A DNA stretch of 64,000 bases, taken from Mactra quadrangularis. Taxonomy: Eukaryota > Mollusca > Bivalvia > Venerida > Mactridae. A program made the translations under genes and the position numbers. Below, in pieces: positions 3,502 to 59,832 of the stretch; position 1 is the first letter of the stretch; every line of letters begins with the position of its first letter. The DNA is taken from the NCBI GenBank assembly GCA_025267735.1, contig CM046309.1:36803202-36867201 (forward strand), in the 5' to 3' direction. The notes under the pieces were generated by a model. The model saw nothing but the letters and a program-made list of their open reading frames with translations. It did no database searches and had not been told where the DNA came from.

Positions 3502-3510
3502 GTGAATGAT
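3502..3510. repeat. Left target-site duplication of the giant foldback element
   Basis: GTGAATGAT lies immediately outside the left terminus AGGTCTGTGAAG. The identical nine bases lie immediately outside the right terminus at 11484-11492. Confidence 0.85.
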
Positions 3511-3889
3511 AGGTCTGTGAAGTTAGCTATCTATTGTCTATTCTCTATTCAAAAGTCTATTCGCACAATAGACAGCTATGTATTGAGAAATCTATTCATT
3601 CAGAAGTCTATTCGCATTTACTGTATACATAAATATAGGTAAGTTCAAATATCTGTACAAAAATCTGTTCACAAAATGCCGAAAAGACAGCTGTCTATTC
3701 GGAAGTCTATTCAGAAGTCTATTCGAAAAAAAGTCAGTAGTGCAATCAAACAGATTTAAAAGTCTTTTCATGGAATACGTAAAGAGACAAATGTCCATTC
3801 AAAAGTCTTTTCAGAAGTTTATTCGCAAAAACATAGTAGTGCAATCTGAATGAGCAAGGTTTCTATTCCAAGAATGCAAGCGACAAATG

Positions 3890-6870
3890 TCCATTCAAAA
3901 GTCTTTTCAGAACTCTATTCGCAAAATCATATATATGCTTTAAGAATGTGTCTGTAGTCTATTATAAAGTTTCCAATAGAGAGCTGTCCATTCAAAAGTC
4001 TATTCAGAAGTCTATTTGCAAAATCATATATATGCATTAAGAATGTGTCTAAAGTCTACCATAAGTTGCGAACAGACAGATGTCCATTCAAATGTCTATT
4101 CAGAAGTCTATTCGCAAAATCATGTATATGCATTCAGAATGAGTCAGAAGTCTTTTATAGAGTTTCGAATAGAGAGCTGTGCATTCAAAAGTCTATTCAG
4201 AAGTCTATTCGCAAAATCATATATATGCATTAAGAATGTGTCTAAAGTCTACCATATAGTTGCGAATAGACAAATGTCCATTCAAATGTCTTTTCAGAAG
4301 TCTATTCGCAAAATCATGTAAATGCATTCAGAATGAGTACGAAGTCTTTTAATGAGTTTCGAATAGAGAGATGTCCATTCAAAAGTCTATTCAGAAATCT
4401 ATTCGCGAAATCTGGTAAATGCTTGCAGAATGAGTCAGAAGTCTTTTATAGAGTTTCGAATAGAGAGCTGTCCATTCAAATGTCTATTCAGAAGTCTATT
4501 CCAAAAGACTAAGTAATGTAATGCAATTTAAACAGATTGAAAGTCTTTTCGCGGAACATGAAAAGAGTCAAATGTCCATTCAAAAGTCTATTCAGAAGTC
4601 TATTCGCAAATTATATTATATGCATTAAAAATGTGTCTAAAGTGTACTATAAAGTTGCGAATAGACAGATGTCCATTCAAATGTCTTTTCAGAAGTCTAT
4701 TCGCAAAAATCATGTATATGCATTCAGAATGAGTCAGAAGTCTTTAATAGAGTTTCGAATAGAGAGATGTCCATTCAAAAGTCTATTCAGAAGTCTTTTC
4801 GCGAAATCTGGTTAATGCGTTCAGAATGAGTCAGAAGTCTATCATACAGTAGCGAATGCAAAGCTGTCCATTCAAAAGTCTATTCAGAAGTCTATTCGCA
4901 AAATCATACATATGCATTTAAAATGTGTCAAAAGTCTATTCAAAGAGTAGCAAATGGATAATTGTCCATTCAAATGTCTATTCAGAAGTCTATTTGCCAA
5001 ATCATGTATATGCATTCAGAATGAGTCAGAAGTCTTTTATAGAGTTTCGAATAGATAGCTGTCCATTCAAAAGTCTATTCAGAAGTCTATTCGCAAAATC
5101 ATATATATGCATTAAGAATGTGTCTTAAGTCTACTATAAAGTTGCGAATAGACAAATGTCCATTCAAATGTCTTTTCAGAAGTCTATTCGCAAAATCATG
5201 TATATGCATTCAGAATGAGTCAGAAGTCTTTAATAGAGTTTCGAATAGAAAGATGTCTATTCAAAAGTCTATTCAGAAGTCTATTCGCGAAATCTGGTTA
5301 ATGCGTTCAGAATGAGTCAGAAGTCTATCATACAGTAGCGAATGCACAGCTGTCCATTCAAATGTCTATTCAGAAGTCTATTCGCAAAATCATATATAAA
5401 CATTAAGAATGTCTGAAGTCTATTATAAAGTAGCGAATAGACAGATGTCCATTCAAATGTCTATTCAGAAGTCTATTCGCAAAATTACGTATATACATTC
5501 AGAATGAGTTAGAAGTCTTTATAAAGTAGCGAAAGGCAGCTGTCCATTCAAAAGTCTATTCAGATGTCAATTCGCCAAATCGTATATATGCAGTTAAAAT
5601 GTGGCAGAAGTCTATTTAAAGAGTAGCAAATAGACAATAATTTTTGCAAATGACTTTTCAGAATTATATTCGCAAAATCATACATATGCATTTAAAATGT
5701 GTCAAAAGTCTATTCAAAGAGTAGCAAATAGATAGCTGTCCATTCAAATGTCTATTCAGAAGTTTATTTGCGAAATCATGTATATGCATTCAGAATGAGT
5801 CAGAAGTCTTTTATAGAGTTTCGAATAGATAGCTGTCCATTCAAAAGTCTATTCAGAAGTCTATTCGCAAAATCATATATATGCATTAAGAATGTGTCTA
5901 AAGTCTACCATAAAGTTGCGAATAGACAGATGTCCATTCAAAAGTCTTTTCAGAAGTCTATTTGCAAAATCATGTATATGCATTCAGAATGAGTAGGAAG
6001 TGTTTTATAGAGCTTCGAATAGAGAGCTGTCCATTCAAAAGTCTATTCAGAAGTCTATTCGCAAAATCTGGTAAATGCGTTCAGAATGAGTCAGAAGTCT
6101 TTTATACAGAAGTAAATACACAGCAGTCCATTCAAATATCTATTCAGAAGTCTATTTGCAAAATCATATATATGTATTAAGAATGTGTCAGATGTTTTTT
6201 ATATAGTTGCGGATAGAGAGATGTCCATTCAAAAGTCTATTTAGAAGTCTATTCCAAAAAAGTCAGTAATGCAATCAAACAGATTTAAAAGTCTTTTCGT
6301 GGTATACGTAAAAAGACAAATGTCTATTCGAAGTGTATTCAGAAGTCTATTCGCAAAATCATATATATATGCATTAAGAATGTGTCTAAAGTGTACTATA
6401 AAGTTGCGAATAGACAGATGTCCATTCAAATGTCTATTCAGAAGTCTATTCGCAAAATCATGTATATGCATTCAGAATGAATCAGAAGTCTTTCATAGAG
6501 TTTCGAATAGAGAGATGTTCATTCAAAAGTCTATTCAGATGTCCATTCGCGAAATCTGGTAAATGCGTTCAGAATGAGTCAGAAGTCTTTTATAGAGTTT
6601 CGAATAGACAGATGTCCATTCAAATGTCTATTTAGAAGTCTATTCGCCAAAAAACTCAGTAATGCAATCAAACAGATTGAAAGTCTTTTGCGGAATATGA
6701 AAAGAGGCAAATGTCCATTCAAAAGTCTATTCAGAAGTCTATTCGCAAATTATATATGCATTCAAATGTGTCCTTAGTCTATTATAAAGTTAGAATAGAC
6801 AGCTGTCCATTGAAATGTCTTTTCAGAAGTCTATTTGGAAACTTATGTAAATCGATTCAGAATGTGTCAG
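3890..6870 (+). repeat. Left arm: ~97-bp tandem repeat array, about 30 copies
   Basis: The core ATTCAGAAGTCTATTCGCAA recurs roughly every 97 bp (for example near 4100, 4198, 4296). Between cores are short variable segments containing ATATATGCATT(A/C)AGAATG. Inside each unit, words such as GAATAGAC and GTCTATTC are themselves inverted, so units can pair locally. The many 60-100-codon frames ending in ...RSLFAKS... are the repeat read in one frame and are not genes. Confidence 0.9.
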
Positions 6871-7410
6871 GTGTAATTGTGATAGACCTGCCAAGTTTAT
6901 TGAAGTTTGCGTGCTTTGCCTGAATTAAGTAAGTTTCTTAACTCTCGTAAACATAAATGAATCTCCCGAATATTTCGGCAATTGTAGGTGAAGGTCGAAT
7001 TTGCCTTTTCATATCGTTGTAATTTTGCCGTTTCTGTAAACCAAATCGAGCCGGTAAATCTGGTTCAAACATGGTCACTGTACCGTAGATTACACAAGTG
7101 CAAATTCAAATACGGTAACCAGTGCTGGTTTTATTCGAGGAAGCGCCATTGTTTGAGACATGCTAATATTTCGAAGTTTGTAGGTAGAAACCTTTGAATT
7201 TCATATTAAATCGTAAACAAAGTGTTATTATCCACAAGAAAAATAAGCGCCAAAAGTAACTACTTTACATTTACATTTAAGTGATTGAGCCTGTAAAAAT
7301 GATTATTTTTGTTTTATAAGAAACACAATTTTACGCCATTTTGTTAAGTTCTTTTGTCGGTGCAACAGCGTGACGTCAATCGTGGTGTTTTCTCACAGGT
7401 CCGTGCTTGT

Positions 7411-7412
<2 letters not shown>

Positions 7413-7445
<33 letters not shown>
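7413..7445. repeat. (TA)n microsatellite
   Basis: About 16 uninterrupted TA dinucleotides lie next to the palindromic element that follows. TA tracts are common insertion targets for TIR elements. Confidence 0.9.
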
Positions 7446-7446
<1 letters not shown>

Positions 7447-7448
7447 GT

Positions 7449-7520
7449 CATTCGGAACTACCTCGGCGATTTTCCACGCAAATACAAATTCGTAGATGAT
7501 CGCCGAGGTCGTTCCGAATG
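7449..7520. mobile_element. Short palindromic MITE, CATTCGGAAC family, copy 1
   Basis: Arms of 22 bp (CATTCGGAAC(T/G)ACCTCGGCGAT, one mismatch) face each other across a ~28-bp loop. Related termini occur at 39231-39301 and inside the larger palindrome at 59292-59566. It sits in the spacer of the foldback element. Confidence 0.75.
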
Positions 7521-7829
7521 ATATAATGTATTCATCTTGTAACCGAAATGAAAAGGGCAGACAAAAACCAATTAGAAGTATTAATCTCATGCCAATAGTT
7601 GTTTTTAAAAGTCCGTAAGACCTGATTACAAAAAAAGAAGTAATTCAGCTGCCGAGAGAAGACTTACTACCAGGAGAAAAATAGAAATCTTGCTTTGAAT
7701 AGAAAAAAGTAGACCTTCTTCAAAGAGCATGTCTATTCACAAACCCAGCAAATAATTCTGACACATTAAAAATGCATATGAATGATTTTGTTAAAGGACT
7801 TCTAACAAATAATTTGAATATGTTTATTT

Positions 7830-10800
7830 ATCACTTTTCAAAAAGAAACTTCTGCTACATTCTGAATGCGAACTACTGTTTGCAAATAGGACAGCAGTCT
7901 ATTCCTAACCCTACCTTTGACTTGTGACACATTCTTTATGCATATAAAAGATTTTGCAAATCGACTTCGGAATAGACATTTGAATGGACAGCTCTCTATT
8001 CGCAACTTTTTAATATACTTCAGACACATTCTGGAATATTCTAACTGCATATATATAATTTTGCGAATAGACTTCCGAAAAGACATTTGTATGGACAGCT
8101 CTCTATTCGCAACTTTATAATAGACTTCAGACTCATTCTGAATGCAAATACATGATGTTACGAAAAGACTTTTGAATAGACATTTGAATGGACATCTGTC
8201 TATTCGCAACTTTATAATAGACTTCAGTCACATTCTTAAGGCATATATATAATTTTGCAAATAGACTTCTGAATAGACATTTGAATGGACAGCTCTCTAT
8301 TCGCAACTTTATCACAGACTTCAGTCACATTCTGAATGCATAAATATGATTTTGCGAATAGACTTCTGAATAGACATTTGAATGGACATCTGTCTATTTG
8401 CAACTTTATAATAGACTTCTGACTGATTTTGAATGCATATATATGATTTTGCGAATAGACTTCTGAATAGACATTTGAATGGACAGCTCTCTATTCGAAA
8501 CTCTATAATAGGCTTTAGACTCATTCTGAAGGTATATACATGATTTTGCGAATAGACTTCTGAATAGACATTTGAATAGACATCTGTCTATTCGCAACTT
8601 TATCATAGACTTCAGTCACATTCTTAATGCATATATATGATTTTGCGAATAGACTTCTGAATAGACATTTGAATGGACATCTGTCTATTCGCAACTTTAT
8701 TATAGACTTCAGTCTCATTCTTAAGGCATATATATAATTTTGCAAATAGACTTCTGAATAGACATTTGAATGGACAGCTTTCTATTCGCAACTTTATAAT
8801 AGACTTCAGTCACATTCTGAATGCATATATATGATTTTGCGAATAGACTTCTGAATAGACATTTGAATGGACATCTGTCTATATGCAACTTTATAATAGA
8901 CTTCTGACTCATTTTGAATGCATATATATGATTTTGCGAATAGACTTCTGAATAGACTTTTGAATGGACAGCTCTCTATTCGAAACTCTATAATAGGCTT
9001 TAGACTCATTCTGAAGGTATATACATGATTTTGCGAATAGACTTCTGAATAGACTTTTGAATGGACAGCTCACTATTCGAAACTCTATAAAAGACTTCTG
9101 ACTAATTCTGAATGCATATACATGATTTTGCGAATAGACTTCTGAATAGACTTCTGAATAGACATTTGAATGGACATTTGTCTATTCACAACTTTATAAT
9201 ACACTTCAGACACATTCTTAATAATTTTGCGAATAGACTTCTAAATAGACTTTTGAATGGACAGCTCTCTATTCGAAACTCTATAAACGATATCAGACTC
9301 ATTCTGCAGGCATATACATGATTTTGCGAATAGACATCTGAATAGACATTTGAATGGACATCTGTCTATTTGCAACTTATAATAGACTTCTGACTCATTT
9401 TGAATGCATATATATGATTTTGCGAATAGACTTCTGAATAGACTTTTGAATGGACAGCTCTCTATTCGAAACTCTATAATAGGCTTTAGACTCATTCTGA
9501 AGGTATATACATGATTTTGCGAATAGTCTACTGAATAGACATTTGAATAGACATCTGTCTATTCACAACTTTATCATAGACTTCAGTCACATTCTTAATG
9601 CATATATATGATTTTGCGAATAGACTTCTGAATAGACATTTGATTGGACAGCTCTCTATTCGCAACTTTATAATAGACTTCAGTCACATGCTTAATGCAT
9701 ATATATAATTTTGCGAATAGACTTCTGAATAGACTTTTGAATGGACAGCTCTCTATTCGTAACTCTTTATAAAAGACTTCTGACTCATTCTGAACGCATT
9801 TACCAGGTTTTGCGAATAGACTTCTGAATAGACTTTTGAATGGGCAGCTTTCTATTCGAAACTCTATAAAAGACTTCTGACTCAATCTGAATGCATATAC
9901 ATAATTTAGCGAATAGACTTCTGAATGGACATTTGAATGGACATGTTTTTATTTGCAACTTCATGATAGACTTCAGACACATTCTCAATGCAAATATATT
10001 ATTTTTCGAATAGACTTCTGAATAGACATTTGAATGGACAGCTCTCTATTCAAAACTCTATAAAAGACTTCTGACTAATTCTGAATGCATATACATGATT
10101 TTGCGAATAGACTTCTGAATAGACTTCTGAATAGACATTTGAATGGACATTTGTCTATTCGCAACTTTATAATACACTTCAGACACATTCTTAATAATTT
10201 TGCGAATAGACTTCTAAATAGACTTTTGAATGGACAGCTCTCTATTCGAAACTCTATAAACGATATCAGACTCATTCTGCAGGCATATACATGATTTTGC
10301 GAATAGACTTCTGAATAGACATTTGAATGGACATCTGTCTATTTGCAACTTTACAATAGCCTACAGACACATTCTTAATGCATATATATGATTTTGCGAA
10401 TAAACTTCTGAATAGACTTTTGAATGGACAGCTCTCTATTCGAAACTCTATAATAGACTTCTGCCTCATTCTGAACGCATTTACCGATTTTTTCGAATAG
10501 ACTTTTGAATAGACTTTGAATGGACATCTTTCTATTCGCTACTTTAAAATAGACGTCAGACACATTCTAAATGCGTATTTGCATATGATGTTGCGAATAG
10601 ACTTCTGAATAGACATTTGAATGGACAGCTGTGTATTTGCTACTGTTTGTTAGTTTGACTCATTCTGAACGCATTCACCAAATTTTGCGAATAGATTTCT
10701 GAATAGACTTTTGAATGGACAGCTCTCTATTCGAACTCTATAATAGATTTCTGACCCATTCTGGACGCATTCACCAGATTTTGCGAATAGACTTCTGAAT

Positions 10801-11170
10801 AGACATTTAAATGGACATCTGTCTATTTGTAACTTTAAAATAGACTACAGACAAATTCTTTATGCATATATATGATTTTGCGAATAGACTTCTGAATAGA
10901 CTTTTGAATGGACAGCTGTCTATTTGAAAATCTATAATAGAATTCTGACTCATTCCGAATGCATTCACCAGATATTGCAAATAGTCTTTTGAATAGACAT
11001 TTGAATGGATATCTATCAATTCCCAACTTAATAATAGACTTCAGACACAGTCTTAAGGCACATATATGATTTTGCGAATAGATATCCGAAAAGACATTTG
11101 AATGGACATTTGTCCCTGGATTTTTGGGAATAGACATCTTGATCATTAAGATTTCATTACTATGTTTTGC
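7830..11170 (-). repeat. Right arm: ~97-bp tandem repeat array, inverted
   Basis: The same ~97-bp unit as the left arm appears here as its reverse complement: GATTTTGCGAATAGACTTC recurs about every 97 bp (near 8350, 8447, 8639). There are about 33 units, some nearly identical to each other: the segments near 9060-9330 and 10030-10310 match over ~250 bp. That implies recent duplication or gene conversion within the arm. Confidence 0.9.
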
Positions 11171-11483
11171 GAATAAACTTCTGAATAGACTTTTGAATGG
11201 ACATTTGTCTATTTATGTATTCTATGAAAAGACTTTTAAATCTGTTTGATTGCATTACTGGTTTTTTTCGAATAGACTTCTGAATAGATTTCCGAATAGA
11301 CAGCTGTCTTTTCGGCATTTTGTGTACAGATTTTTGTACAGATATTTGAACTTTCCTATATCAATGTATACAGTAAATGCGAATAGATTTCTGCATGAAT
11401 AGATTTCTCAATACATAGCTGTCCATTGAGCGAATAGACTTTTGAATAGAGAATAGACAATAGATCGCTAACTTCACAGACCT

Positions 11484-11492
11484 GTGAATGAT
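11484..11492. repeat. Right target-site duplication of the giant foldback element
   Basis: GTGAATGAT follows the terminal AGACCT directly and is identical to 3502-3510. The next two bases (AG) also match the bases after the left copy, so the duplication could be read as up to 11 bp. Confidence 0.85.
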
Positions 11493-17500: not shown

Positions 17501-17513
17501 CCGCATTTAAGAA

Positions 17514-17586
17514 GCCTCCATAGCTCAGTGGTTAGAGCACTGGTCTTGTAAACCAGGGGTCGTGAGTTCGATCCTCACTGGGGGCT
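17514..17586 (+). tRNA. tRNA-Thr (anticodon TGT), copy 1
   Basis: The 73-nt sequence folds as a standard cloverleaf. Acceptor GCCTCCA pairs with TGGGGGC (one G-T), followed by discriminator T. The anticodon arm is CTGGT-CTTGTAA-ACCAG with TGT at positions 34-36. The T arm is GTGAG-TTCGATC-CTCAC. Box A (TAGCTCAGTGG) and box B (GGTTCGA-like, GAGTTCGATCC) are intact. A T-run (ATTTTT) about 9 nt downstream can end Pol III transcription. CCA is not encoded, as expected for a nuclear gene. Confidence 0.95.
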
Positions 17587-18103
17587 GGACTGTATTTTTG
17601 GTTTGCCTGACACTGTCACATTTTTTCTGACAAAGTGATTACATGTGCATTGTATTTAAAATATCGTAAATATATCCCGAAGGTTTGTATTTTGTTTGGA
17701 TTCATTTTTTGTTATGATTACTTTCATACCAAATATTTTTATTAAGTACAGCCAAGTTCTTCTATAAAGAATTGTATTGTTATTCGAAATTATGTGACTT
17801 TTAAGATTTAAAGTTCCATATAGTTAATCTGAGAAGAAAAATGTCCATTATTGTAATTTGGACGGCAAAATTGCAGTGTATTTGTTTTGTTTTCGAGCTC
17901 ATATATGTACCTAATAAAACTATTTTATAGAGATTTTTAATTGAAATTATAAAAACAACCAAAGTTACGAGACAAAATAGAAGTTTCTTGAATATTTTTA
18001 TGTAATTATAAGAGTATACGTACATGTTCATATTTTGGTAGAAAAAATGAAAAACATTCCTAGTGTTGAGCCAACACAATGGCATTGGCAAAAGATATTG
18101 TCC

Positions 18104-18176
18104 AGCCCCCAGTGAGGATCGAACTCACGACCCCTGGTTTACAAGACCAGTGCTCTAGCCACTGAGCTATGGAGGC
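18104..18176 (-). tRNA. tRNA-Thr (anticodon TGT), copy 2, inverted
   Basis: Reverse-strand copy of the same 73-nt tRNA, differing from copy 1 at a single D-loop position (GGCTA versus GGTTA) and identical to copy 3. All stems pair and the anticodon is TGT. Its upstream flank contains TGACGTGGCA(A)GATAGCT, also found upstream of copy 3, so flank and gene were duplicated together. A TTTT follows the 3' end on the minus strand. Confidence 0.95.
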
Positions 18177-18593
18177 GCTACGATAATGCACAATATATTT
18201 ATTACTTTGATATATAGCTATCTTGCCACGTCATTTGATAGTAAATCTAATATATTTTAATAGACTTCAGTGTAGTTTTACGGTATAAAGAAAATTTAAT
18301 TTAGTTGTTGACAATGCAAGGATATCTTAATTTAATAAATGGGTCAATAGTGAAGACAATGATTAATATTGTGGTTGTATTATCTGCTGTATAAAATTAT
18401 GAATCTGTTTTCCTGTGATTTAAGAATTAAATGGGTTTTTTGTCCATAATCAGGTCTTAATCTGAAAACCCTGTCTATAATCATTACAGGTTATGTTTTG
18501 CGTAGTGCCAATTTTACTAATATCCAAAAAAATATTAGTGACTTATGGTTAATATAAAAGGCACGTAAACTTAATCTTTCGATACAAATAATA

Positions 18594-18850
18594 TACTAGG
18601 ACGAAAAAGAAACGCCGGGTACATAAAATATGCAACACATGTCCGGCCGTGTTTCGCAAAACAAGAAGGGTCATCGTTAAAAGGGGGTATTTTTTCACAT
18701 AATCAGCATCGGAAATCGATTGAAACTTCAACAGCTGGTTCCATACAGTTGACATTTCATACAAAAATAAATATAATAATCCAATAATACAATTTATCCC
18801 TTAAAACAATCATTATATAGGTTACCCGGCGTTTCTTTTTCGTCCTAGTA
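18594..18850. mobile_element. MITE with perfect 28-bp terminal inverted repeats
   Basis: TACTAGGACGAAAAAGAAAC... (continuing GCCGGGTA) at 18594 is inverted without mismatch at the right end, 18823-18850. Both ends are embedded in TA/TATA, consistent with a TA target. It is 257 bp and non-coding; the perfect TIRs suggest a recent insertion. It lies between tRNA copies 2 and 3. Confidence 0.85.
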
Positions 18851-19267
18851 TATAAGACTACCATTTTATGTATTATTACTATCATTGTAATGTCAATAAG
18901 AATCTTTCCTTTCACTATCAAGGGCCGGGTCCAGAAGGGTCGTGGGAGGCACCGGAGAGATTGTGTGAAGTAGTATCCTTTCTAGAGGTGGCAATAATTT
19001 TTTTCAAATGTCAAAGATGCAAAACAGAATTCTTTAAAGTTAAAATAAATTGTGAAAATAGGGATAGGTATTGTTATTAACCAAAAGTTGTATACTTATG
19101 TTAACTTTGATGTCAACTGTTATACAATCTCACACTGATAACAGGCATGTAGTGACAGCTGGTCATTTAACCAGTTATTCAATGAAAATTATCATAGATC
19201 TACAATTAACTGACGTGGCATGATAGCTTTATAACATAGATGAGAATAGTCTACGCTTTATTGTAGC

Positions 19268-19340
19268 GCCTCCATAGCTCAGTGGCTAGAGCACTGGTCT
19301 TGTAAACCAGGGGTCGTGAGTTCGATCCTCACTGGGGGCT
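19268..19340 (+). tRNA. tRNA-Thr (anticodon TGT), copy 3
   Basis: A 73-nt cloverleaf identical to copy 2, preceded by TGTAGC and the conserved upstream block TGACGTGGCATGATAGCT about 60 nt away. A TTCTTTTTT run within 12 nt downstream is a strong Pol III terminator. Box A and box B are intact. Confidence 0.95.
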
Positions 19341-21459: not shown

Positions 21460-24400
21460 TATGTCTGTTGCCTTCATTGCAACTTAGGATCATTTTTGCC
21501 CTTATAGTTTCATTGTGTAGCTTTCCACACGTAAATGTTGATTGCTGGTTGCCTTCATAGAACTATGAGACCATCTTTGGTCTACTTGTTTCATTGTGTA
21601 GCCCTCCACACATAAATGTTGCTTACTGGTAGTCTTCATTGCAACTTGTGACCATCTTTGGTCTTATTAATTCATTATATAGCCTTCCTTACATAAACGT
21701 TGCTTGTTTTTCATTGCAACTTTGAACCATCTTTGGTCTAATTTTCTATAGTGTAATCTTCCACACATACATGCTGCTTGTTGGTTGCTGTCATTGCAAC
21801 TTGGGATTATGTTTACCTTTTTTTTAATTGTGTAGTCTTCCACAAGTAAAAAGTACTTGCTGCTTGCTTCATTGCAACTTGGGACCATCTTTGGTCTAAT
21901 AGTTTTATTGTGTAGTCTTCCAAAATTAAATTTGGTTGCCTATTGCCATTGTTGCGACTTGGGACCATCTTCGGCCTTATTGTTTCATTGTAAAGCCTTC
22001 CACACAATTATACTGGTTGCCTTAATTGCAACTTGGGACCATCTTTGGTCTAATTGTTTAATTGTGTAGCCTTCCACACAATTATACTGCTTGCTGGTTG
22101 CCTTCATTGTAACCTGGGACCATCTTTGGTCTAATTGTTTAATTGTGTTTCCTTCCACACAAAAATGCTGCTTGCTGGTTGCCTTTATTGTAACCTGGGA
22201 CCATCTTTGGCCTAATTGTTTAATTGTGTAGCCTTCCACACAAACATGCTGCTTGCTGGTTGCCTTCATTGCAACTTGGGACCTTATTTGGCCTTTTTGT
22301 GACATCGTGTAGCCTTTCACACAAACATGCTGCTTGCTGGTTACCTTCATTGTAACCTGGGACCATCTTTTGCCTTTTTGTGACATTGTGTAGCCTTCCA
22401 CACAAAAATGCTGCTTGCTGGTTGCCTTTATTGTAACCTGGGACCATCTTTGGCCTAATTGTTTAATTGTGTAGCCTTCCACACAAACATGCTGCTTGCT
22501 GGTTGCCTTCATTGCAACTTGGGACCTTATTTGGCCTTTTTGTGACATCGTGAAGCCTTTCACACAAACATGCTGCTTGCTGGTTGCCTTTATTGTAACC
22601 TGGGACCATCTTTGGCCTAATTGTTCAATTGTGTAGCCTTCTACACAAACATACTGCTTGCTGGTGGCCTTCATTGTAACCAGGGACCATCTTCGGCCTA
22701 ATTGTTTAATTGTGTGGCCTTCCACACAAACATGCTGCTTGCTGGTTGCCTTCATTGCAACTTGGGACCTTATTTGGCCTTTTTGTGACATCGTGTAGCC
22801 TTTCACACAAACATGCTGCTTGCTGGTTGCCTTCATTGTAACCTGGGACCATCTTTGGCCTAATTGTTCAATTGTGTAGCCTTCCACACAAACATACTGC
22901 TTGCTGGTGGCCTTCATTGTAACCAGGGACCATCTTCGGCCTAATTGTTTCATTGTGTAGCCTTCCACACAAACATGTTGCTTGCTGGTTGCCTTCATTG
23001 TAACCAGGGACCATCTTTGGTCTAATTGTTTAATTGTGTAGCCTTCCACACATACGTACTGTTTGCTGGTTGCCTTTATTGTAACCTGGGACCATCTTCG
23101 GCCTAATTGTTTAATTGTAAAGCCTTCCGCACATACATGAAGCTTGCTAGTTGCCTTCATTGTAACCTGGGACCATCTTCGGCCTATTGTTTAATTGTGT
23201 AGCCTTCCACACATACATACTGCTTGCCGGTTGCCTTCATTGTAACCTGGGACCATCTTTGGCCTATTGTTTAATTGTGTAGCCTTCCACACAAACATAC
23301 TGCTTGCTGGTTTCCTTCATTGTAACCTGAGACTATCTTTGGCCTATTGTTTCATTGTGTAACCTTCCACACAAACATACTGCTTGCTGGTTGCCTTCAT
23401 TGTAACCTGGGACCATCTTTGGCCTATTGTTTAATTGTGTAGCCTTCCACACAAACATACTGCTTGCTGGTTGCCTTCATTGTAACCTGGGACCATCTTT
23501 GGCCTATTGTTTCATTGTGTAGCCTTCCACACTAACATACTGCTTGCTGGTTTCCTTCATTGTAACCTGAGACCATCTTTGGCCTATTGTTTAATTGTGT
23601 AGCCTTCCACACAAACATACTGCTTGCTGGTTGCCTTCATTGTAACCTGGGACCATCTTTGGCCTATTGTTTCATTGTGTAGCCTTCCACACAAACATAC
23701 TGCTTGCTGGTTGCCTTCATTGTAACCTGGGACCATCTTTGGCCTATTGTTTCATTGTGTAGCCTTCCACACTAACATACTGCTTGCTGGTTTCCTTCAT
23801 TGTAACCTGGGACCATCTTTGGCCTATTGTTTAATTGTGTAGCCTTCCACACTAACATACTGCTTGCTGGTTTCCTTCATTGTAACCTGGGACCATCTTT
23901 GGCCTATTGTTTCATTGTGTAGCCTTCCACACTAACATACTGCTTGCTGGTTGCCTTCATTGTAACCTGGGACCATCATTGGCCTATTGTTTCATTGTGT
24001 AGCCTTCCACACTAACATACTGCTTGCTGGTTTCCTTCATTGTTACCTGGGACCATCTTTGGCCTATTGTTTCATTGTGTAGCCTTCCACACTAACATAC
24101 TGCTTGCTGGTTGCCTTCATTGTAATCTGGGACCATCTTTGGCCTATTGTTTCATTGTGTAGCCTTCCACACTAACATACTGCTTGCTGGTAGCCTTCAT
24201 TGTAATCTGGGACCATCTTTGGCCTATTGTTTAATTGTGTAGCCTTCCACACAAATATACTGCTTGCTGGTTGCCATCATTGTAACCTGGGACCATTTTT
24301 GGCCTATTGTTTAATTGTGTAGCCTTCCACACAAACATACTGCTTTCTGGTTGCCATCATTGTAACCTGGGACCATCTTTGGCCTATTGTTTAATTGTGT

Positions 24401-24630
24401 AGCCTTCCACACAAGCATACTGCTTTCTGGTTGCCTTCATCGTAACCTGGGACCATCTTTGGCCTATTGTTTAATTGTGTAGCCTTCCACACAAACATAC
24501 TGCTTGTTGGTTGCCTTCATTGTAACCTGGGACCATCTTTGGCCTATTTTTTAATTGTAAAGCCTTTCACACATACATGCTGCTTTCTGGTTGCCTTGAT
24601 TGCAACTTGGCACCATCTTTGGCCTAACAG
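21460..24630. repeat. Satellite array of 80/81-bp units, about 39 copies
   Basis: Each unit reads approximately GTAACCTGGGACCATCTTTG - GCCTA(A)TTGTTTAATTGTG - TAGCCTTCCACACAAACATA - CTGCTTGCTGGTTGCCTTCA. Units from about 21985 to 23160 are mostly 81 bp; from about 23180 to 24560 they are 80 bp because TAATTG becomes TATTG. The 81-bp block keeps one minus-strand frame open for 391 codons (27 residues per unit), while the 80-bp block does not. Within the 81-bp part a three-unit higher-order period of 243 bp is visible (repeat starts near 22241, 22484, 22727). The left edge (21460-21980) is diverged. Confidence 0.92.
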
Positions 24631-25809: not shown

Positions 25810-26380
25810 CTAACAGCCTCCCATCAAGCCGACATAGGGGGACTCTATGTCGTCTTCGTCAATGAACGCAGATGGTGAGATTTTGTTTGTATTGAAAATA
25901 GGATTTACTGTGGGACGGTCGTTTGATGTGGATAAAATGCAAGGTCTGTAAGAGTAAGAGCAAGGTAGTTTGGGTCGTGGTTTGCTTTGTCTTAAACCTT
26001 GGCATAGTGTGTGATCGCGTGTGGACATTGGTTCCTTATCTAAGACGTAGCTGATAATAGGTGCAACATCACACTGACATTGTAAGCCATACATGCCCTG
26101 GAGCATGCCAATGAGTCCCTGTAGTCTTTTAAAGGTGATAACCATTCCCCTGTTAACTACGAGTTTATCCTGGAGCTTTAGATGGCCATGGCTATCAAAG
26201 ATATGGAATCTGTCCTCATCTCTGATGATAGCATAGGTGAAACACTTGATGGTTACAAGGAAACCAACCCTATTTATTGTTGGTTCAAAAGTTTCCAGGT
26301 ACTCCTGCAAAATATGTCGAGAGAAATTACCATTAAGATAATGCCAACTTAATGCTTTCCATGAGTCTTTGGACAAAATT
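25810..26380 (-). CDS. Last exon: His/Asp part of the protease-like domain and C-terminal tail
   Basis: The acceptor is CTTAATACAG at 26381-26390. The frame requires one leading base, so the previous exon must end with two bases. The open frame runs ~190 codons to a TAG at 25810-25812. It contains GFLVTIKCFTYAII, then HIFDSHGHLK, then a hydrophobic stretch (LQGLIGMLQGMYG) that would fit the end of a papain-like fold. The last ~75 residues are Pro/Ser/Thr/Asn-rich and likely disordered. An upstream TAA in the same frame lies just before the acceptor, which supports splicing at this site. Confidence 0.8.
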
Positions 26381-29300
26381 CTGTATTAAGAATAAACCGA
26401 CCTTCAAATTAACCAACCCGGGTCGATAGCGCAGTTAGTAGCGCACCGGGATTTGGAATCTCGTGCCCGATGGGGTGAGAGTTCGAATACCACCCGCGGA
26501 GATTATACCCTTCCATGAAAATTTGACAATATCGTCGATTTTCTTCATTTATTACATAATATGGAGAAGTTTCCAGTCTTGTGGAAGCGTAGGTGAGTAC
26601 TGGTTATAGACAATGGTCTAGGAAAGCTAGGTTAGGTGCGCTGGACGCCGTAAAATGACCTTAAATGTGTTGACATGGCGTTAACTCAAATAAATGAATA
26701 GATCAATTCAAATTAATCAATGAAGAAAAAAGGCTCATCTGAGCAAATTCCAATATCAACATTAATTAGACTATCAGTATGTATTCCTAGCTATGATAAT
26801 TTGGCACGGCTATGAGTACAATAAGTTCACATTAAGTTTCATATCGAGTAATAAATACTGAAATTCATTTAAATCAGACAAAAGAAAATAATTATGTTGG
26901 TCTTCAGCATAACATTGAACTATCAATAGCAGACAGTTACAATAAATACACCTCTGTAAAAAGACACAGAGTTTGTCATACACAACTTACTGAAACTTAA
27001 CGCATTAGCAGGATGAAACACAAAAGCTATATCATGTTGATGAAGACAAGAAATGATTTAAGACACGTTCAGTATTGATGAGCACAGATTTAGAGAATAT
27101 TAACAATGAAGATAAAGCTGACTCATTTTAACCATAAAACAAACGTAATACCATTTATATTGTCTCTGAAGTTTATATTGTATTTCTATTGTACAGCATT
27201 GATTGTATCAATATTGATGCAACAAGACTGTGACAGACTGATTGTGACTCCCAACTTAAGTCATAATTTAAATTCATAATGATTGTATTGTGAACGTATG
27301 GTGTGTTAAGCTTGAGATGACTCTAGACAAAAGGTTTGGGCCAACATTTTGTTAAAAAAAAAGAAAAAGTAATTGCATTTTATAGTCTAAGTTTCATGCT
27401 TACGCACGTTCACCGACTTTACAGCTATTACCCCTGGTCATTGGGCTACTGGTATCTATCTATTAATCTTTCTGGGAAGTCTTTTTACTCCGCTTATTAG
27501 TGCAGCCGACAAATTGGCGCAACGGAATTATACCACCCTTGCAAGTACCCATTTACACCTGGGTGGAGTGAAGCAATGGCAGGTAAATTTCTTGCTCAAG
27601 GAAATTAGCAGTGCCCCTGGTGGGATTCGAACCCAGGACCTCTCGATCCCTAAGTGCGCGTCCTACCACTGGACCACTGCTCCATTGTTAGTAAACTGTA
27701 GTAGATTGACGTCTTTATAAGTCATAGCATTTTATGTACAACGTTGGAACTAGGTACCCGTGATCTTGTCTGATAGTTCTTGTTTTTAACCATTTGAAAT
27801 ACACGACCGTTGTATTTAGTATAAGAACTGAACAGAGCAGAACGTAAATTCATAGGACAAAATGTGAGCTATGAAAACCATAGAAACAATTACTGACCTT
27901 CAGACTTTGAAGCCCAAAGTTTGCAGCATATTCAGATGTAAGCACTGGCACAGATTCAGTGGCAAGTCGGACTCCCATGTCTTTAGTAAAGACATTGTTC
28001 AATCTTACCATACCATCGTGAGGAAAATCGCTTATCCCAACCATACCGTCTCTTATACGGCCGAATCTCTTCATTTTCCTAAAATAATAAAAAGATATTC
28101 ACAATTCTGTGTATTTATTGTATTTTCCTTGGAATAGAAGCATTTATGGATTTGTAAACAATGTATGAAGTAATCATAAAAATAAAACAAAAAAAGTATG
28201 TAAGTCAGTCAAGTGTACACTTCAACAATAAATTAGAAAAAATAACTGTTTGTACTTTTCCATACAAGGGTTGTCTATTTGATGAGTACATACATGTAAT
28301 TACACAAGTTACGTAATTATCCCGGTTATTCGTTGGCTTCAATTTCTTTTCGAATGTATTAATCTTATTCAAGCAAAATGCCAGTTAAGTACCAAATCCT
28401 TAACAGAATCAAATTCTTTTTTAAAACAAATGTTACGGAATAAAAAGGCCATACGATATCATTGGACATCCTGTATGAATATACAAAATATGTTACATGA
28501 TTTTTAGAATGTATTAGCTTTTCATCCAAATAAACACTGCGGGAAAGTCGTTTGTAAAACATGTGTCTCTGTTGATTAATAGACATGTCGCGAGCTTAAC
28601 GCAAAGAAGTCGTAACTTAGTTTATACCTAACTTGAGTTACGACTGCTTTGCGCTAAGCTCGCGATATTTGATCAAAAAAGATTAGCGTAAAAATATTGG
28701 CAAGCACAGTGAGTATTAAACTATATCAAATTAAGCCAGTTGAAATGACAGACATCACTATACACGAATGTATAGTGCGTACAAATTGACCCCGACCTGA
28801 CCTTTATGCGAGAATATTCATTACATTGAATACGAGTGTAGTATTAAATCTCGATAACAATCGGATTATATCGTCGAGGCTCGAAAGTAACTATAACACA
28901 GGGATTAATTTTAAAGTTCATTCAAAGCGTACAACGAGTGTTTATTACACATGGACTGGACCAGATGATTATACTATGAGGCTAGCTACCAATTCAAAAG
29001 TTGTGGGTTTTAGCCCCACAACCGCCATCCCCCATCCATTTATTATCAATTATATTCAAAAATGTAAGAACACGAGTTTCCCGTTTGATTGCATTTGAAT
29101 CGTGAGTTGTTTTACATGCGTGATGTGTATACTTTATACATGTCTTATTTTATCTTAAACACGTAACGAGCCGAAGCATACAGTAGGCGTGGTATTGATT
29201 TTCGCCGGGATACGTGTAAATGATAATTAGATGCAAATGAGAAAGGTAAGGTCGGGTTCAATGTGTACGCACTATATAACATTTTGTTACATTATGTCTA

Positions 29301-32300: not shown

Positions 32301-35300
32301 TTGAAAGAGTGGGTAATGCGAGGAACTCTTCACACCTTTCAGTGTTTGAGTCACTAGCAGTGGTTTAGTCTTGAATGTTGTGTACAGCACATATAGAATG
32401 TAATGGCATTATTTTACACCGATAATAATACTTGCCATTCTCAAACAGTACATGGACATAAAATTCGTTGTTGTCTAGTCAAAACCTCGTAACTTCCATT
32501 CAATAAAGGTAAAACTACGAGGTTTTGACTAGACAACAACGAATTATACGTGTAGCTATGATTTACTAAATGATAATCACTCAGTTTGATATTTATTTTT
32601 AAATGGAGTGTCAAATACCAAATATCAATCTATCTTTACGCACATGAACTATTATGTAGTTTGAGAACAGAACAGAACAGATACTACATATAGTTTATGT
32701 ATAGCTGATATGCAAACCATCATCTAACCAAATTAATGTAGATCTAGTTCATTTACTTAACTTTGTTCCATAAATGAAAGACATAATAATTTGAAATTAA
32801 AGCATCAGAATGAAGGGGTAAAAGTGCACAGACTTAGGTGAAATCTGATCATCAATACGTTAAATTGGATTTGAAGATGTATCAAAACTAAGACAATGTA
32901 TACATTTGTCTACTTAAAACATTTTACAGGGGGGTGGGGGCACCAGGATTTTTATTTAAGGGGGTGGGGTCCGAACTGTTTCTATGGGGGTCCAAACTTT
33001 CGAACCACAACCACATTACACACATTTTGCAGAATAATGCACAATATTAATTATAAAAACTGCATAGCCATCAAATATTAGTTAAGCACCGAGGAAAACG
33101 CTTCATGCTACTTAAGATGACATACAGTAAAAAAAAAAAACTAATGGACAGGTACATTTTGGAAATTCAAGGGGGAGGGGTCCGGACCCCCCTGAACCCC
33201 CTAGATCCGCATGTGTTTTAGACAAACTCTATGAGGACTGATCGTATACAAAGATATACTACTAGTAGTTCATAGTAAAATATATGGGCATACATGTTAT
33301 TAAAGTCTGAAGCTTAACAATTCAACTCGTAGTTTTACAATGTATGACTATTTACCGACAATTAAAATCAGATCAACTCGATTCAATATAATGTTGCACT
33401 GTCATGTAAACAGTTAAATTCAATTATAATATTCAAAATGTATAAATTTAATATTTATTTTCATTGTCATTAACATTTAGCAGAAGTACTTGTTTATGTG
33501 GTAACGAATAAAACATTCTTTTTTCAAAGACTGACATTAGAAATTGCATAGTGATTTGACCAAGTAGATAAATATTATTAATCGTCGAATAAAATAATTA
33601 TAAAGTAAAATGTTAAAGATGTTAATGATAATAAATATAAAGTAAAAAATATCTAAAACACATAATTGTCATGGTACAGTGTGTGGGAAAAATATAATGA
33701 AAAACATCATGCCATATACAACTATGTCAAGGATGACACAAAAAAGTTAAATAGTTAAACATAAATAAGCATAATGATGGGAAAATTAAATAATAATAAT
33801 GATGATATATTTTTAAAATATGAAAGTTATTTACGTAGAAGAATATTGCCAATTGTATTACGTACATCAAGATTCGTATTTCAATTTAGAATATTCATTC
33901 ACGATAACTCGTTATGCGCATCGTCGTAATCATACATATGTAATTATCATACATTGTATATTAAATCGTTAATTTAAATTGTTTAATATTATATATATTT
34001 ATTATTATATTATATACAATATTTAGTATTAAATATGCTTAATATTATAGACTTGGTACAAGGCAAACTACTAAGTCGCCAAATTTAACATGTAGGCCTA
34101 AACATAAAATACCCGGCTTAGTTACGCTTTTATACTGTACTGTACGCGAAAGAAGGAGAATTCTTAGTAGAAGCAGTAGAAAAAAAGGAGCACTGATTGT
34201 TATATTCATCAAATGAAGTTATTGTATTGTTTTGATAGCACCATAAGACATGCTATCAAACCTCCACCAACATTAGACGTCCTGCTTAGTCACGCTTTTA
34301 TATTGAAGTTTGTGTCGTGAAAGTAGCAGAAATCTTAATAAAATTGGTAAAGAACAAGTAGCACAAATTGTTACGTTTATCAAATGAATTCATGTCAATG
34401 TTATGATTATTAAAAGCATCAAAATTAATGTATTATTATTTATTGTATAATAAGGCCGCCGGCCCATACACATAGACAAAGTATACATATAGTAGACAAT
34501 GTACATAAAGTTACATAACTAGCAGACAATTTTATTTAAATTATTATTACATTATGGATGAACCACATGGTATTAACTTACTTTGGTAAGCATAGTTCGA
34601 CAATTTCAAATATTATTTAGCCACATTCTACATAATAGTTACATAAAATGATACATAATTATAAAAATCAATCACTTACATACTCATTTCTCTAATCAAA
34701 AGCATGATAAAAAAACATTGATAAATTGAGAATATTCTGATGGTTCTCATTTCCCATCCGATTAATAAAATGTTCTAATGATAAATAAGAATTACAAAAT
34801 ACAGGCAAATATTTTTGTCTTAAGTTATTATACAATGGACAACAGTCTAGCATATAAAATGTAGCTCATCCTCTAAGACTATTTCACAATAAGGACAATA
34901 TCTAAAATCACGATCTACATTAAAATGTCGACCTTTTTCAACCATTAAATCATGGAAAGAACTTCTAAAATTTGCCAAACATTTTCGAAATTTATTGTTA
35001 AATTAAAGCAACCGTGCCACAAAATTTCACTTCTACCTTAGACGCCCTGTTTAGATAGTCTACGCTTTTCGATTTAAGTTTGCGTCACGAAAGTAGGAAA
35101 ATTCTTGAGAAAATACGTTAAAAGTATAGCATTATTTGTCACATTCATTAAATGAAGTCATATTATTATAATGATGACCATTAGCATCAAAATAAAAGCT
35201 AACATTCCGCAAACATTTAAACGCTCCACCACAGACGCCCTGTTTAGTTACGCTCACCTATCAAAGTTTGCGTCGTATAATAAGGAAAATCTTTTAAAAA

Positions 35301-39230: not shown

Positions 39231-39301
39231 CATTCGGAACATCCTCGACCTTTCATGAATGAATAATTATTCGTAGCGAATGGCCGAAGATGTTCCGAAT
39301 G
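39231..39301. mobile_element. Short palindromic MITE, CATTCGGAAC family, copy 2
   Basis: CATTCGGAACATCCTCGACC and its inverse (AATGGCCGAAGATGTTCCGAATG read back) form ~22-bp arms. It shares its terminal words with 7449-7520 and 59292-59566. Confidence 0.75.
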
Positions 39302-39516
39302 TCTTATTATCAACGCACCTGTGCGTTGATATAAACAATTATCAAGATTTGAGCATTTTGTAGTCGACACCGGTTGTCTTAAGCCAATCAAAACTATGCA
39401 TTTGAGGTCACATGATAAGAAAATGGCCGTGAAAAAGTAAAAAAAGGGGTGTGATAATGGACTCGTCTAGTTGTTGACTAAAATCAAGCTGGCGCATAGT
39501 CAATAGCGGGCATTAG

Positions 39517-45459: not shown

Positions 45460-48400
45460 GTAGCTTAATTTTTCAATCATAGAATTTTGCCCGTAGGTTA
45501 TTTTTTACAGTTGATGTAGGTTTTTTAATTAGACTTTGTCATTTTTGTTTCCCTTTTTTAACAATTTTTCTTGTAGGTATTTTTTTGCAATTGATGTAGG
45601 TTAATTTTACACTTTAAGATTTTACTATTTTTACTTTTCTTTGTTAATTTTCTTTTCTTATTTATCAATTATTTGCTAGTAGGTTAATTTTTCATCATTT
45701 TTTTTGCTGGTAGGTTATTTTTTCAATTTTAGATTTTTGCTGTAGGTTATTTTTTCAGTTGAAATAGGTTATTTTTTTACAATTTAAGGTTTTACATGCG
45801 ATAGACACTAGGCACTGGTCAAATGGAGATTGGTCGATATGACTTGGTCACGGAGTCTTACCTCTCCAATTGATGTTAACAGAGTTGGTGTTGTGTTTGC
45901 ATGTTTTTTTTTCTACTTTTACTTTTCTTTGTTAATTTTCTTCTCTTTTTTTCACTAATTATTTTGCTAGTAGGTTATTTTTTCATTTTAGATTTTTGCT
46001 GTAGGTTATTTTTTCAGTTGAAGTAGGTTATTTTTTTACAATTTAAGGTTTTACATGCGATAGACACTAGGCACTGGTCAAATGGAGATTGGTCGATATG
46101 ACTTGATCACGGAGTCTTACCTCTCCAATTGATGTTAACAGAGTTGGTGTTGTGTTTGCATGGTTTTTTTTCTACTTTTATTTTTCTTTGTTAATTTTCT
46201 TCTCTTTTTTTCACTTATTATTTTGCTAGTAGGTTATTTTTTCATTTTAGATTTTTGCTGTAGGTTATTTTTTCAGTTGAAGTAGGTTATTTTTTTACAA
46301 TTTAAGGTTTTACATGCGATAGACACTAGGCACTGGTCAAATGGAGATTGGTCGATATGACTTGATCACGGAGTCTTACCTCTCCAATTGATGTTAACAG
46401 AGTTGGTGTTGTGTTTGCATGGTTTTTTTTCTACTTTTATTTTTCTTTGTTAATTTTCTTCTCTTTTTTTCACTTATTATTTTGCTAGTAGGTTATTTTT
46501 TCATTTTAGATTTTTGCTGTAGGTTATTTTTTCAGTTGAAGTAGGTTATTTTTTTACAATTTAAGGTTTTACATGCAATAGACACTAGGCACTGGTCAAA
46601 TGGAGATTGGTCGATATGACTTGGTCACGGAGTCTTACCTCTCCAATTGATGTTAACAGAGTTGGTTTTGTGTTTGCATGTTTTTTTTTCTACTTTTATT
46701 TTTCTTTGTTAATTTTTTTCTCTTTTTTTCACTAATTATTTTGCTAGTAGGTTATTTTTTCATTTTAGATTTTTGCTGTAGGTTATTTTTTCAGTTGAAG
46801 TAGGTTATTTTTTTACAATTTAAGGTTTTACATGTGATAGACACTAGGCACTGGTCAAATGGAGATTGGTCGATATGACTTGGTCACGGAGTCTTACCTC
46901 TCCAATTGATGTTAATAGAGTTGGTGTTGTGTTTGCATGTTTTTTTTTCTACTTTTATTTTTCTTTGTTAATTTTCTTCTCTTTTTTTCACTTATTTTTT
47001 GCTAGTAGGTTATTTTTTCATTTTAGATTTTTGCTGTAGGTTATTTTTTCAGTTGAAGTAGGTTATTTTTTTTACAATTTAAGGTTTTACATGCGATAGA
47101 CACTAGGCACTGGTCAAATGGAGATTGGTCGATATGACTTGGTCACGGAGTCTTACCTCTCCAATTGATGTTAACAGAGTTGGTGTTGTGTTTGCATGTT
47201 TTTTTTTTCTACTTTTATTTTTCTTTGTTAATTTTCTTCTCTTTTTTTCACTTATTATTTTGCTAGTAGGTTATTTTTTCATTTTAGATTTTTGCTGTAG
47301 GTTATTTTTTCAGTTGAAGTAGGTTATTTTTTTACAATTTAAGGTTTTACATGCAATAGACACTAGGCACTGGTCAAATGGAGATTGGTCGATATGACTT
47401 GGTCACGGAGTCTTACCTCTCCAATTGATGTTAACAGAGTTGGTGTTGTGTTTGCATGTTTTTTTTTTCTACTTTTATTTTTCTTTGTTAATTTTCTTCT
47501 CTTTTTTTCACTTATTATTTTGCTAGTAGGTTATTTTTTCATTTTAGATTTTTGCTGTAGGTTATTTTTTCATTTGAAGTAGGTTATTTTTTTACAATTT
47601 AAGGTTTTACATGCGATAGACACTAGGCACTGGTCAAATGGAGATTGGTCGATATGACTTGGTCACGGAGTCTTACCTCTCCAATTGATGTTAACAGAGT
47701 TGGTGTTGTGTTTGCATGTTTTTTTTCTACTTTTATTTTTCTTTGTTAATTTTCTTCTCTTTTTTTCACTTATTATTTTGCTAGTAGGTTATTTTTTCAT
47801 TTTAGATTTTTGCTGTAGGTTATTTTTTCAGTTGAAGTAGGTTATTTTTTTACAATTTAAGGTTTTACATGCAATAGACACTAGGCACTGGTCAAATGGA
47901 GATTGGTCGATATGACTTGATCACGGAGTCTTACCTCTCCAATTGATGTTAACAGAGTTGGTGTTGTGTTTGCATGTTTTTTTTTCTACTTTTATTTTTC
48001 TTTGTTAATTTTCTTCTCTTTTTTTCACTTATTATTTTGCTAGTAGGTTATTTTTTCATTTTAGATTTTTGCTGTAGGTTATTTTTTCAGTTGAAGTAGG
48101 TTATTTTTTTACAATTTAAGGTTTTACATGTGATAGACACTAGGCACTGGTCAAATGGAGATTGGTCGATATGACTTGGTCACGGAGTCTTACCTCTCCA
48201 ATTGATGTTAACAGAGTTGGTGTTGTGTTTGCATGTTTTTTTTTCTTACTTTTATTTTTCTTTGTTAATTTTCTTCTCTTTTTTTCACTTATTATTTTGC
48301 TAGTAGGTTATTTTTTCATTTTAGATTTTTGCTGTAGGTTATTTTTTCAGTTGAAGTAGGTTATTTTTTTACAATTTAAGGTTTTACATGCGATAGACAC

Positions 48401-49330
48401 TAGGCACTGGTCAAATGGAGATTGGTCGATATGACTTGATCACGGAGTCTTACCTCTCCAATTGATGTTAACAGAGTTGGTGTTGTGTTTGCATGTTTTT
48501 TTTTCTACTTTTATTTTTCTTTGTTAATTTTCTTCTCTTTTTTTCACTTATTATTTTGCTAGTAGGTTATTTTTTCATTTTAGATTTTTGCTGTAGGTTA
48601 TTTTTTCAGTTGAAGTAGGTTATTTTTTTACAATTTAAGGTTTTACATGTGATAGACACTAGGCACTGGTCAAATGGAGATTGGTCGATATGACTTGGTC
48701 ACGGAGTCTTACCTCTCCAATTGATGTTAACAGAGTTGGTGTTATGTTTGCATGTTTTTTTTTCTACTTTTATTTTTCTTTGTTAATTTTCTTCTCTTTT
48801 TTTCACTTATTATTTTGCTAGTAGGTTATTTTTTCATTTTAGATTTTTGCTGTAGGTTATTTTTTCAGTTGAAGTAGGTTATTTTTTTACAATTTAAGGT
48901 TTTACATGCAATAGACACTAGGCACTGGTCAAATGGAGATTGGTCGATATGACTTGGTCACGGAGTCTTACCTCTCCAATTGATGTTAACAGAGTTGGTG
49001 TTGTGTTTGCATGTTTTTTTTCTACTTTTATTTTTCTTTGTTAATTTTCTTCTCTTTTTTCACTTATTATTTTGCTAGTAGGTTATTTTTTCATTTTAGA
49101 TTTTTGCTGTAGGTTATTTTTTCAGTTGAAATAGGTTATTTTTTTACAATTTAAGGTTTTACATGCGATAGACACTAGGCACTGGTCAAATGGAGATTGG
49201 TCGATATGACTTGGTCACGGAGTCTTACCTCTCCAATTGATGTTAACGGAGTCGGTTATGTGTTTGCATGGTTTTTTTTTGTACTTTTACTTCATTTTTG
49301 TTTTTTTTAATCAATTATTTTGCTAGTAGG
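45460..49330 (+). repeat. 259-bp tandem array, about 14 copies
   Basis: TAGACACTAGGCACTGGTCA recurs at 45802, 46061, 46320, 46579 and so on to 49169, an average period of 259.0 bp over 13 intervals. Each unit has a unique half (GGTCACGGAGTCTTACCTCT - CCAATTGATGTTAACAG) and a T-rich half with repeated GTAGGTTATTTTTT. Inner copies differ by only a few bases, mostly in T-run length. The 65-codon frames in it are not genes. Confidence 0.95.
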
Positions 49331-59290: not shown

Positions 59291-59291
59291 G

Positions 59292-59566: not shown

Positions 59567-59832
59567 TTGTGTAATTGAACACGCTACAGGATATACTGCA
59601 TGTGAATTCAAATCCAATCATTGTCACAGATCCTCGAGTTTATTGAAGATTTATGATGGAACAGTAGTTCTAATGAGTGGCTGGGGGCAGGATTTAGGCA
59701 TTTTTTTGAAAAAATCTATCCTTACAGACTTATTGTTAGTCTTCTGATCAATTTCCTCTCTAAAGTTACAAGATAATGTGATTTATAATGCTTGATAGGA
59801 AATGTTTGTAGTGAATTTCATTGTATTGTATT

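Follow-up and report, generated by a model that had tools for sequence, protein, structure and literature searches.

A satellite-armed foldback transposon family in the bivalve Mactra quadrangularis, very probably non-autonomous and recently mobile

Introduction

This work describes a 7973-bp foldback element with arms of 97-bp tandem repeats in a 64,000-nucleotide stretch of the Mactra quadrangularis genome (GenBank assembly GCA_025267735.1, contig CM046309.1, forward-strand positions 36,803,202 to 36,867,201). The whole stretch is referred to here as the window, and coordinates are window positions unless a contig is named. The element is very probably a recently mobile, non-autonomous foldback DNA transposon with motif arrays as arms, moved by cut-and-paste in trans and most likely Mutator/Rehavkus-like. 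The original prediction, made from the letters of the window alone, had likened it to Drosophila Foldback and to Mutator-like elements (MULEs). Drosophila Foldback (FB/NOF) has inverted arms of short subrepeats and a 9-bp target duplication, and the likeness is one of structural description. Galileo, another Drosophila element with long inverted ends, duplicates 7 bp of its target.

The closest described systems, cited here for the parts of the published accounts available to us, share much of this plan. Tetris, from Drosophila virilis, has an outer unique domain, tandem repeats in inverted arms, and a variable non-coding middle; it produces 8- to 10-bp duplications, is non-autonomous with no transposase found, and was suggested to belong to the Mutator superfamily (PMC4079207). 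Its arms reach at most 1,735 bp, its repeats are ∼220 bp long, and three structurally complete copies are described (PMC4079207), whereas the family reported here has arms of up to 4.5 kb of 97-bp repeats among the copies measured, and hundreds of copies. Rehavkus-1_TC, from Tribolium castaneum, is a 9.5-kb DNA transposon with arrays of a 164-bp satellite unit in its inverted termini (PMC10218199), mostly of five and eight monomers (PMC10218199, PMC6446971), compared with ∼33 per arm in the window element. Rehavkus elements generate 9-bp target duplications, are reported from arthropods and annelids, and encode a transposase with a PHD finger (PMC6446971); no transposase was found in the scanned parts of the window family.

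Tm1, a Mutator/Foldback element of root-knot nematodes, likewise has inverted repeats of composite build in which the number of tandem motifs varies; its duplications are mostly 9 bp long (8 to 10 bp in 45/53 elements), and its two ends are on average 93% identical within an element (PMC3169594). It differs in its 14-bp motif, in the asymmetric 7-bp tips outside its inverted repeat, and in having known copies with a Phantom-like transposase; the part of the account available mentions no 97-bp unit (PMC3169594). Galileo, of the P superfamily, resembles the window element in its long inverted ends, whose internal tandem repeats expand and contract and hold further transposase binding sites, but has arms of 0.5 to 1.2 kb and a P-type transposase with a THAP domain (PMC3688188, PMC3573991). 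The kind of element is thus already known, with the same plan in insects (Tetris, Rehavkus-1_TC) and nematodes (Tm1); what stands out here is the length of the arms, the number of copies, and how cleanly insertion and repeat turnover are recorded.

The original prediction also knew of no described bivalve element of this kind. In the open literature, judged by title or start of abstract and with subscription journals and Repbase aside, we found no foldback element of this kind from a bivalve or other mollusc. In the available parts of the oyster satellitome literature, the word “foldback” occurs in reference lists only, and one study assigns two satellites to MuDR by similarity; another paper on bivalve satellites, as far as available, likewise has “foldback” in its references only. 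The accessible text of a bivalve transposon survey lists MULEs and contains neither “foldback” nor “Rehavkus.”

Results and Discussion

Structure of the element in the window

The + strand of the window contains GTGAATGAT at two places, 3502-3510 and 11484-11492, and the reverse complement of this sequence is absent. These two copies of a 9-bp target site duplication enclose the 17-bp tip AGGTCTGTGAAGTTAGC and its reverse complement, each present a single time (at 3511 and at 11467-11483, respectively), so that the predicted single inserted unit of 7973 bp (3511-11483, read on the + strand) was recovered with both ends exact. The extremities of the element read AGGTCTG. In inverted orientation, the outer 345 bp of the two ends (3511-3855 on the + strand and 11139-11483 on the − strand) align with 323 identities, 20 mismatches, and 4 gap positions (94%).

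Inward of these ends lie the two opposed repeat arms that the original prediction had described. The left arm (3680-6870, + strand) consists of ∼33 tandem 97-bp units, with three GTCYATTC motifs spaced 12 bp apart as their core; the right arm (8038-11213, − strand) consists of ∼33 inverted units and is repeat-like from ∼7915. With partial ones counted, 35 unit matches fall in one arm and 39 in the other. The arms make up 7103 of 7973 bp (89%), forming a long inverted, mostly tandem repeat around a middle domain of 870 bp (6871-7740). Exact copies of the counted motifs are absent from this centre, its longest stop-free frame is 83 codons, and a six-frame Pfam scan of it gave no match. Within it lies a small nested hairpin element (7448-7521) flanked by TATAATG direct repeats (7441-7447 and 7522-7528); it carries CATTCGGAAC near its ends and has look-alikes at 39231-39303 and 59261-59597.

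We gauged how often such a structure arises by chance. For spans of 100 to 12,000 bp, an 8-bp inverted repeat with an exact flanking 9-bp direct repeat is found at this single place in the window; when the inverted repeat is relaxed to 7 bp, seven further cases appear, six of them within a tandem array. First-order Markov shuffles contained a 10-bp inverted and 9-bp direct pair in 2/20 cases, so this pair alone is expected ∼0.1 times per window by chance; in the element, however, the match between the ends extends over 345 bp. The probability that two random 9-mers are equal is 7e-5 in the window and 1.4e-5 in its non-tandem stretches. Similarity between the two flanks was rejected as a feature (score of 30 against a shuffle mean of 23.6, with 4% of 300 shuffles as high), and the other flank comparisons, including the right flank against the beginning of the element (families D12 and D13), were at shuffle level. 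Exact matches to the 17-bp tip in viral (2) and prokaryote (4) collections are read as chance, since the four best BLAST rows on the six loci span only the 17- to 18-bp tip; the 20-mer motif had 0 matches in viral contigs.

A hairpin-read or assembly artefact was considered because assembly is difficult in tandem arrays and other satellites occur in the window, so that two unrelated satellites or a segmental inversion might mimic one unit. Inward of the outer 345 bp, in-register identity between the arms drops to 81-87%, and a hairpin-read origin of the inverted structure is excluded by this difference of 13-19%. The ends moreover recur hundreds of times in the genome, with 42 facing pairs among the first 100 tips and 19 other copies carrying duplications of their own. 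These genome-wide tips and duplications refute the whole group of readings, to which we assign practically no probability.

Copies across the genome and their target duplications

The genome searched comprises 979 Mb, with the window on contig C17. The exact 17-bp tip occurs 786 times (387 forward, 399 reverse), compared with 0 for a control read backwards. The left 390 bp gave at least 40 full-length matches at 99-100% identity, the window's own included, and two partial ones (best 40 of 1889 candidates); the right end (11300-11483, 184 bp) matched 40 places at 100% over its full length (best 40 of 941 candidates). Among the first 100 tips listed, which run from C1 to part of C4, 84 form the 42 facing pairs, spaced 2,707 to 12,286 bp apart (median, 8,765), and 16 are unpaired. 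Extrapolated to all 786 tips, this gives an estimate of ∼330 two-ended elements, ∼2.9 Mb, or ∼0.3% of the genome, counting exact tips only.

Some loci depart from the simple two-ended arrangement. At C1:20397651/20399158, C2:22547123/22548631, and C4:12116796/12118304, a second tip in the same orientation lies 1507-1508 bp away, and the copy L023 has a second left end within its left arm (element positions 1398-1741); perhaps these belong to a subfamily with doubled ends. On C11, two tip pairs of 7,490 bp each (46560102-46567591 and 46574830-46582319) lie 14.7 kb apart, and their equal length suggests a segmental duplication carrying the element.

For insertion sites, the 20 copies best matching the left end were fetched. 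The right tip fell within the fetched stretch in 19, giving, with the window copy, 20 two-ended copies; L024, whose right tip lies beyond its fetched 9.6 kb, was excluded from these counts. All 20 start and end at identical bases, and 14 are flanked by exact 9-bp duplications, 2 by 9-bp duplications with one mismatch (8/9), and 4 by exact 8-bp duplications; without the window copy, the figures are 13, 2, and 4. The duplicated targets differ between copies. The boundaries of the other copies therefore coincide with 3511 and 11483, as the original prediction required. They also settle the duplication length: judged from the window copy by itself, 9 bp fits no better than a symmetric duplication of 11 bp (element 3512-11482), and the latter is rejected by the other copies, which give 9 and sometimes 8. 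Helentrons and Helitrons, known as satellite carriers in oysters, are not known to make a target duplication or to have terminal inverted repeats of this type; the target duplications and inverted ends seen here do not fit such a carrier.

Two observations document movement. The copies L026 and L027 are identical over 9,624/9,624 bp, yet their target duplications are TAAAAAAAA and TCAACAAGG, respectively, and their left flanks are unrelated (85/300 positions equal). Identical copies at different targets indicate recent movement. In addition, the flanks of L030, whose duplication is one of the two with a mismatch, were joined with one target copy; the alignment then runs across the junction to a repeat in the window (within 32901-33300) at 75% identity and to a repeat in the flank of L032 at 77%. 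Neither related site contains the element. The L032 site has the target AAAAATGAC in a single copy identical to the left one of L030; the window repeat also has it in a single copy, there with one mismatch and one gap. The element-less site anticipated by the original prediction was thus found in paralogous form, not as an empty allele of the same site.

Variation between copies and array turnover

In pairwise comparisons, left ends are 99.7% identical (copies having been selected on this end), right ends 98.1%, and centres 98.6% (15/20 copies, after a length filter). The two ends within one copy are on average 91.5% identical, compared with 98.1-99.7% between copies, so ends are not homogenised within an element.

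Arm length varies by repeat number, both between copies and between the two arms of one copy. Among the 20 copies, left arms measure 1217-4518 bp and right arms 2636-4435 bp, with a correlation of 0.18. Eight copy pairs were aligned and are colinear at 96.5-98.5% identity; of the gaps of at least 25 bp in these alignments, 44/47 deviate by no more than 0.1 from a whole number of 97-bp units, ranging from 1 to 7 units, and the three off-register gaps measure 32, 302, and 2150 bp. Some copies occur in more than one pair, which makes these gaps non-independent, and one pair has no such gap. The best-matching unit lies in the same arm for 50/65 units. In the window copy, the right arm (− strand) contains an internal duplication (9089-10351) in which 290 bp at 9089 and 10062 are 288/290 identical, with a spacing of 973 bp.

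Other copies extend this range. L035 to L037, chosen by size (2.7-3.4 kb), are more diverged, with ends 77-94% identical to those of the window copy and no match to its centre. L039 and L040 are the longest of the tip pairs listed (12.3 and 11.2 kb), and their middle 7.5 and 5.0 kb were fetched; the arrays are longer there, and the version of the centre is diverged (79-89% identical) and includes an additional stretch. In L020 and L023, the centre is longer by ∼320 and ∼545 bp, respectively.

The 97-bp unit and its motif

Unit statistics are based on the 65/73 aligned rows with at least 80 columns. In these near-complete units, the best 33-bp core shows 95% consensus compared with 86% elsewhere in the unit (permutation p, 0.0026), and it is this core that holds the three spaced motifs. 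With one mismatch allowed, GTCYATTC has a density of 39-41 per kb within the arms and of 1.3 per kb in the remainder of the window, and it runs mostly in one orientation per arm (110 to 22 and 123 to 32). Under the same tolerance, it also lies 26, 33, and 45 bp from each tip, the first thus at 26 bp, and the main orientation is present in ∼40-150 copies per arm of the two-ended elements. The hairpin signal of single units is weak (z of −2.2, −3.1, and −1.4 for three units).

By analogy with Galileo, the motif core may provide repeated transposase-binding or synapsis sites. We tentatively propose, at somewhat less than an even chance, that the satellite arms are the working part of the element: the ∼40-150 putative transposase-binding motifs per arm would let array length tune the competition for transposase, and selection on a gene-less parasite would thereby build and spread a satellite. 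Conversely, the arms may be passengers without a role in transposition, the functional ends being a few hundred base pairs long and the tandem repeats having been captured or having expanded between them. The broad span of arm lengths and their low correlation suggest that exact length is not critical, the 3.2-kb L036 has an exact 9-bp duplication (compared with 5/9 in L035 and L037), and the outer 345 bp are better conserved between the arms than is the array. Set against these points are the occurrence of the motif close to the tips, its place in the best conserved part of the unit, and the lack of array-less copies among those read. We regard a passenger role as a serious possibility, albeit one we lean slightly against.

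Search for a transposase and superfamily assignment

A relative with a transposase, which the original prediction had proposed to look for, was not found in 11/43 MULE loci and four Pfam-scanned centres. The centres scanned, those of the window copy, L020, L023, and L039, are free of Pfam matches. No stop-free centre frame exceeds 110 codons in any of the 20 two-ended copies, and the fetched middle parts of L039 and L040 have no stop-free frame of at least 130 codons. With their diverged version of the same centre, their longer arrays, and the Pfam-empty centre of L039, these longest tip pairs were discarded as autonomous copies. L024 was likewise discarded: its ∼8-kb interior interrupts the left arm, with left-orientation motifs on both sides, and yielded only four Pfam rows below the cut-off, and is therefore read as a foreign insertion.

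At the genome level, 43 matches to the MULE-type transposase domain (PF10551) were found, all over the Pfam cut-off, and no such transposase was linked to the element ends in the 11/43 loci checked. Four of these loci (L038 and L041 to L043, 7-7.5 kb each) have no arms, tips, or end similarity, and none of the seven MULE places on C1-C3, contigs with a complete tip list, lies within 300 kb of an exact tip. The nearest listed tip to any MULE place is 71 kb away, in a comparison for which tips are partial beyond C4, 8/43 MULE places lie on contigs without a listed tip, and C9, which has no MULE place, was left out. No PHD or transposase match was found in the scanned parts, and no genome search was aimed at a Rehavkus transposase; a THAP match was likewise absent from the scanned parts, the genome not having been searched for THAP. 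The missing PHD and transposase matches are as expected of a non-autonomous copy.

Several of these results weigh against a recently mobile element moved by a MULE-type enzyme, namely, the lack of a transposase in the scanned copies and the lack of any connection between the element and the MULE loci just described. To these are added the choice of the 20 copies as best left-end matches, which makes the sample lean young; the poorer duplications of the three short copies chosen by size (one exact 9 bp, two 5/9); and the fact that core conservation could come from array homogenisation instead of binding.

Duplication length bears on the superfamily. MULEs duplicate 8-11 bp, usually 9 bp, and the 20 copies (14 exact 9, 2 with one mismatch, 4 exact 8) fall in this range, which is not specific to MULEs. 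The Rehavkus pattern of 9-bp duplications (apart from 4/20 at 8 bp) and satellites in inverted ends is also present. The 7- to 8-bp range of P and Galileo elements fits poorly, with 8 bp in 4/20 copies and exact 9 bp in 14/20. Target duplications of Merlin, hAT, and P measure 7-9 bp, and the same transposon might use a transposase from another 8- to 9-bp superfamily (P/Galileo-like, Merlin, or hAT), with foldback arms arising convergently. The four exact 8-bp duplications would suit such a source, and foldback arms are known outside Mutator, in the available account of Galileo (PMC3688188). The predominance of 9 bp, exact in 14/20 copies and with one mismatch in 2 more, is the usual Mutator/Rehavkus length as given in the part of the literature available (PMC6446971), and we consider another superfamily unlikely. 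Of the likeness first proposed, the foldback structure and the 9-bp length hold; the Mutator affiliation is probable, not firm.

A non-autonomous, most likely Mutator/Rehavkus-like transposon would work as follows. A transposase made elsewhere would bind the element ends and cut at the AGGTCTG tips, and insertion into a staggered cut of 9 bp (sometimes 8 bp) would be repaired so as to duplicate the target. The 97-bp arrays belong to the mobile unit, and their cores may act in binding or synapsis. Unequal exchange, slippage, or gap repair would add or remove complete 97-bp units.

Other features of the window

The window contains two further satellites, a very homogeneous 259-bp repeat at 45702-49289 (13.8 copies, 98% matches, internal 31-bp repeats) and an 80-bp repeat at 21467-24626 with higher-order periods of 160 and 240 bp and a 391-codon open frame on the − strand. 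Three tRNA-Thr(TGT) genes lie at 17513-19340, the second and third in a 175-bp inverted repeat (83%), and a 263-bp segment with perfect 31-bp inverted ends lies at 18591-18853. On the − strand, 57168-57780 is a Mariner-type transposase remnant (PF01359 match at 57168-57446, with a helix-turn-helix-like piece upstream), and 25813-26385 is a 191-codon open frame with a weak, sub-threshold Herpes_teg_N match (E, 0.0018).

Implications for satellite DNA

In the Pacific oyster, scattered satellite-like arrays have been attributed, in the available part of the account, to Helentron carriers (PMC7492417); here, the carrier is an element of the foldback type, with inverted ends. A family of some hundreds of copies, each ∼8 kb long and bearing inverted arms, would also provide material for inversions and ectopic exchange. 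With an identical pair at two targets, an element-less paralogous site, and length changes mostly of whole units, the origin and turnover of a satellite can be traced step by step, and the element represents one way in which satellite DNA spreads.

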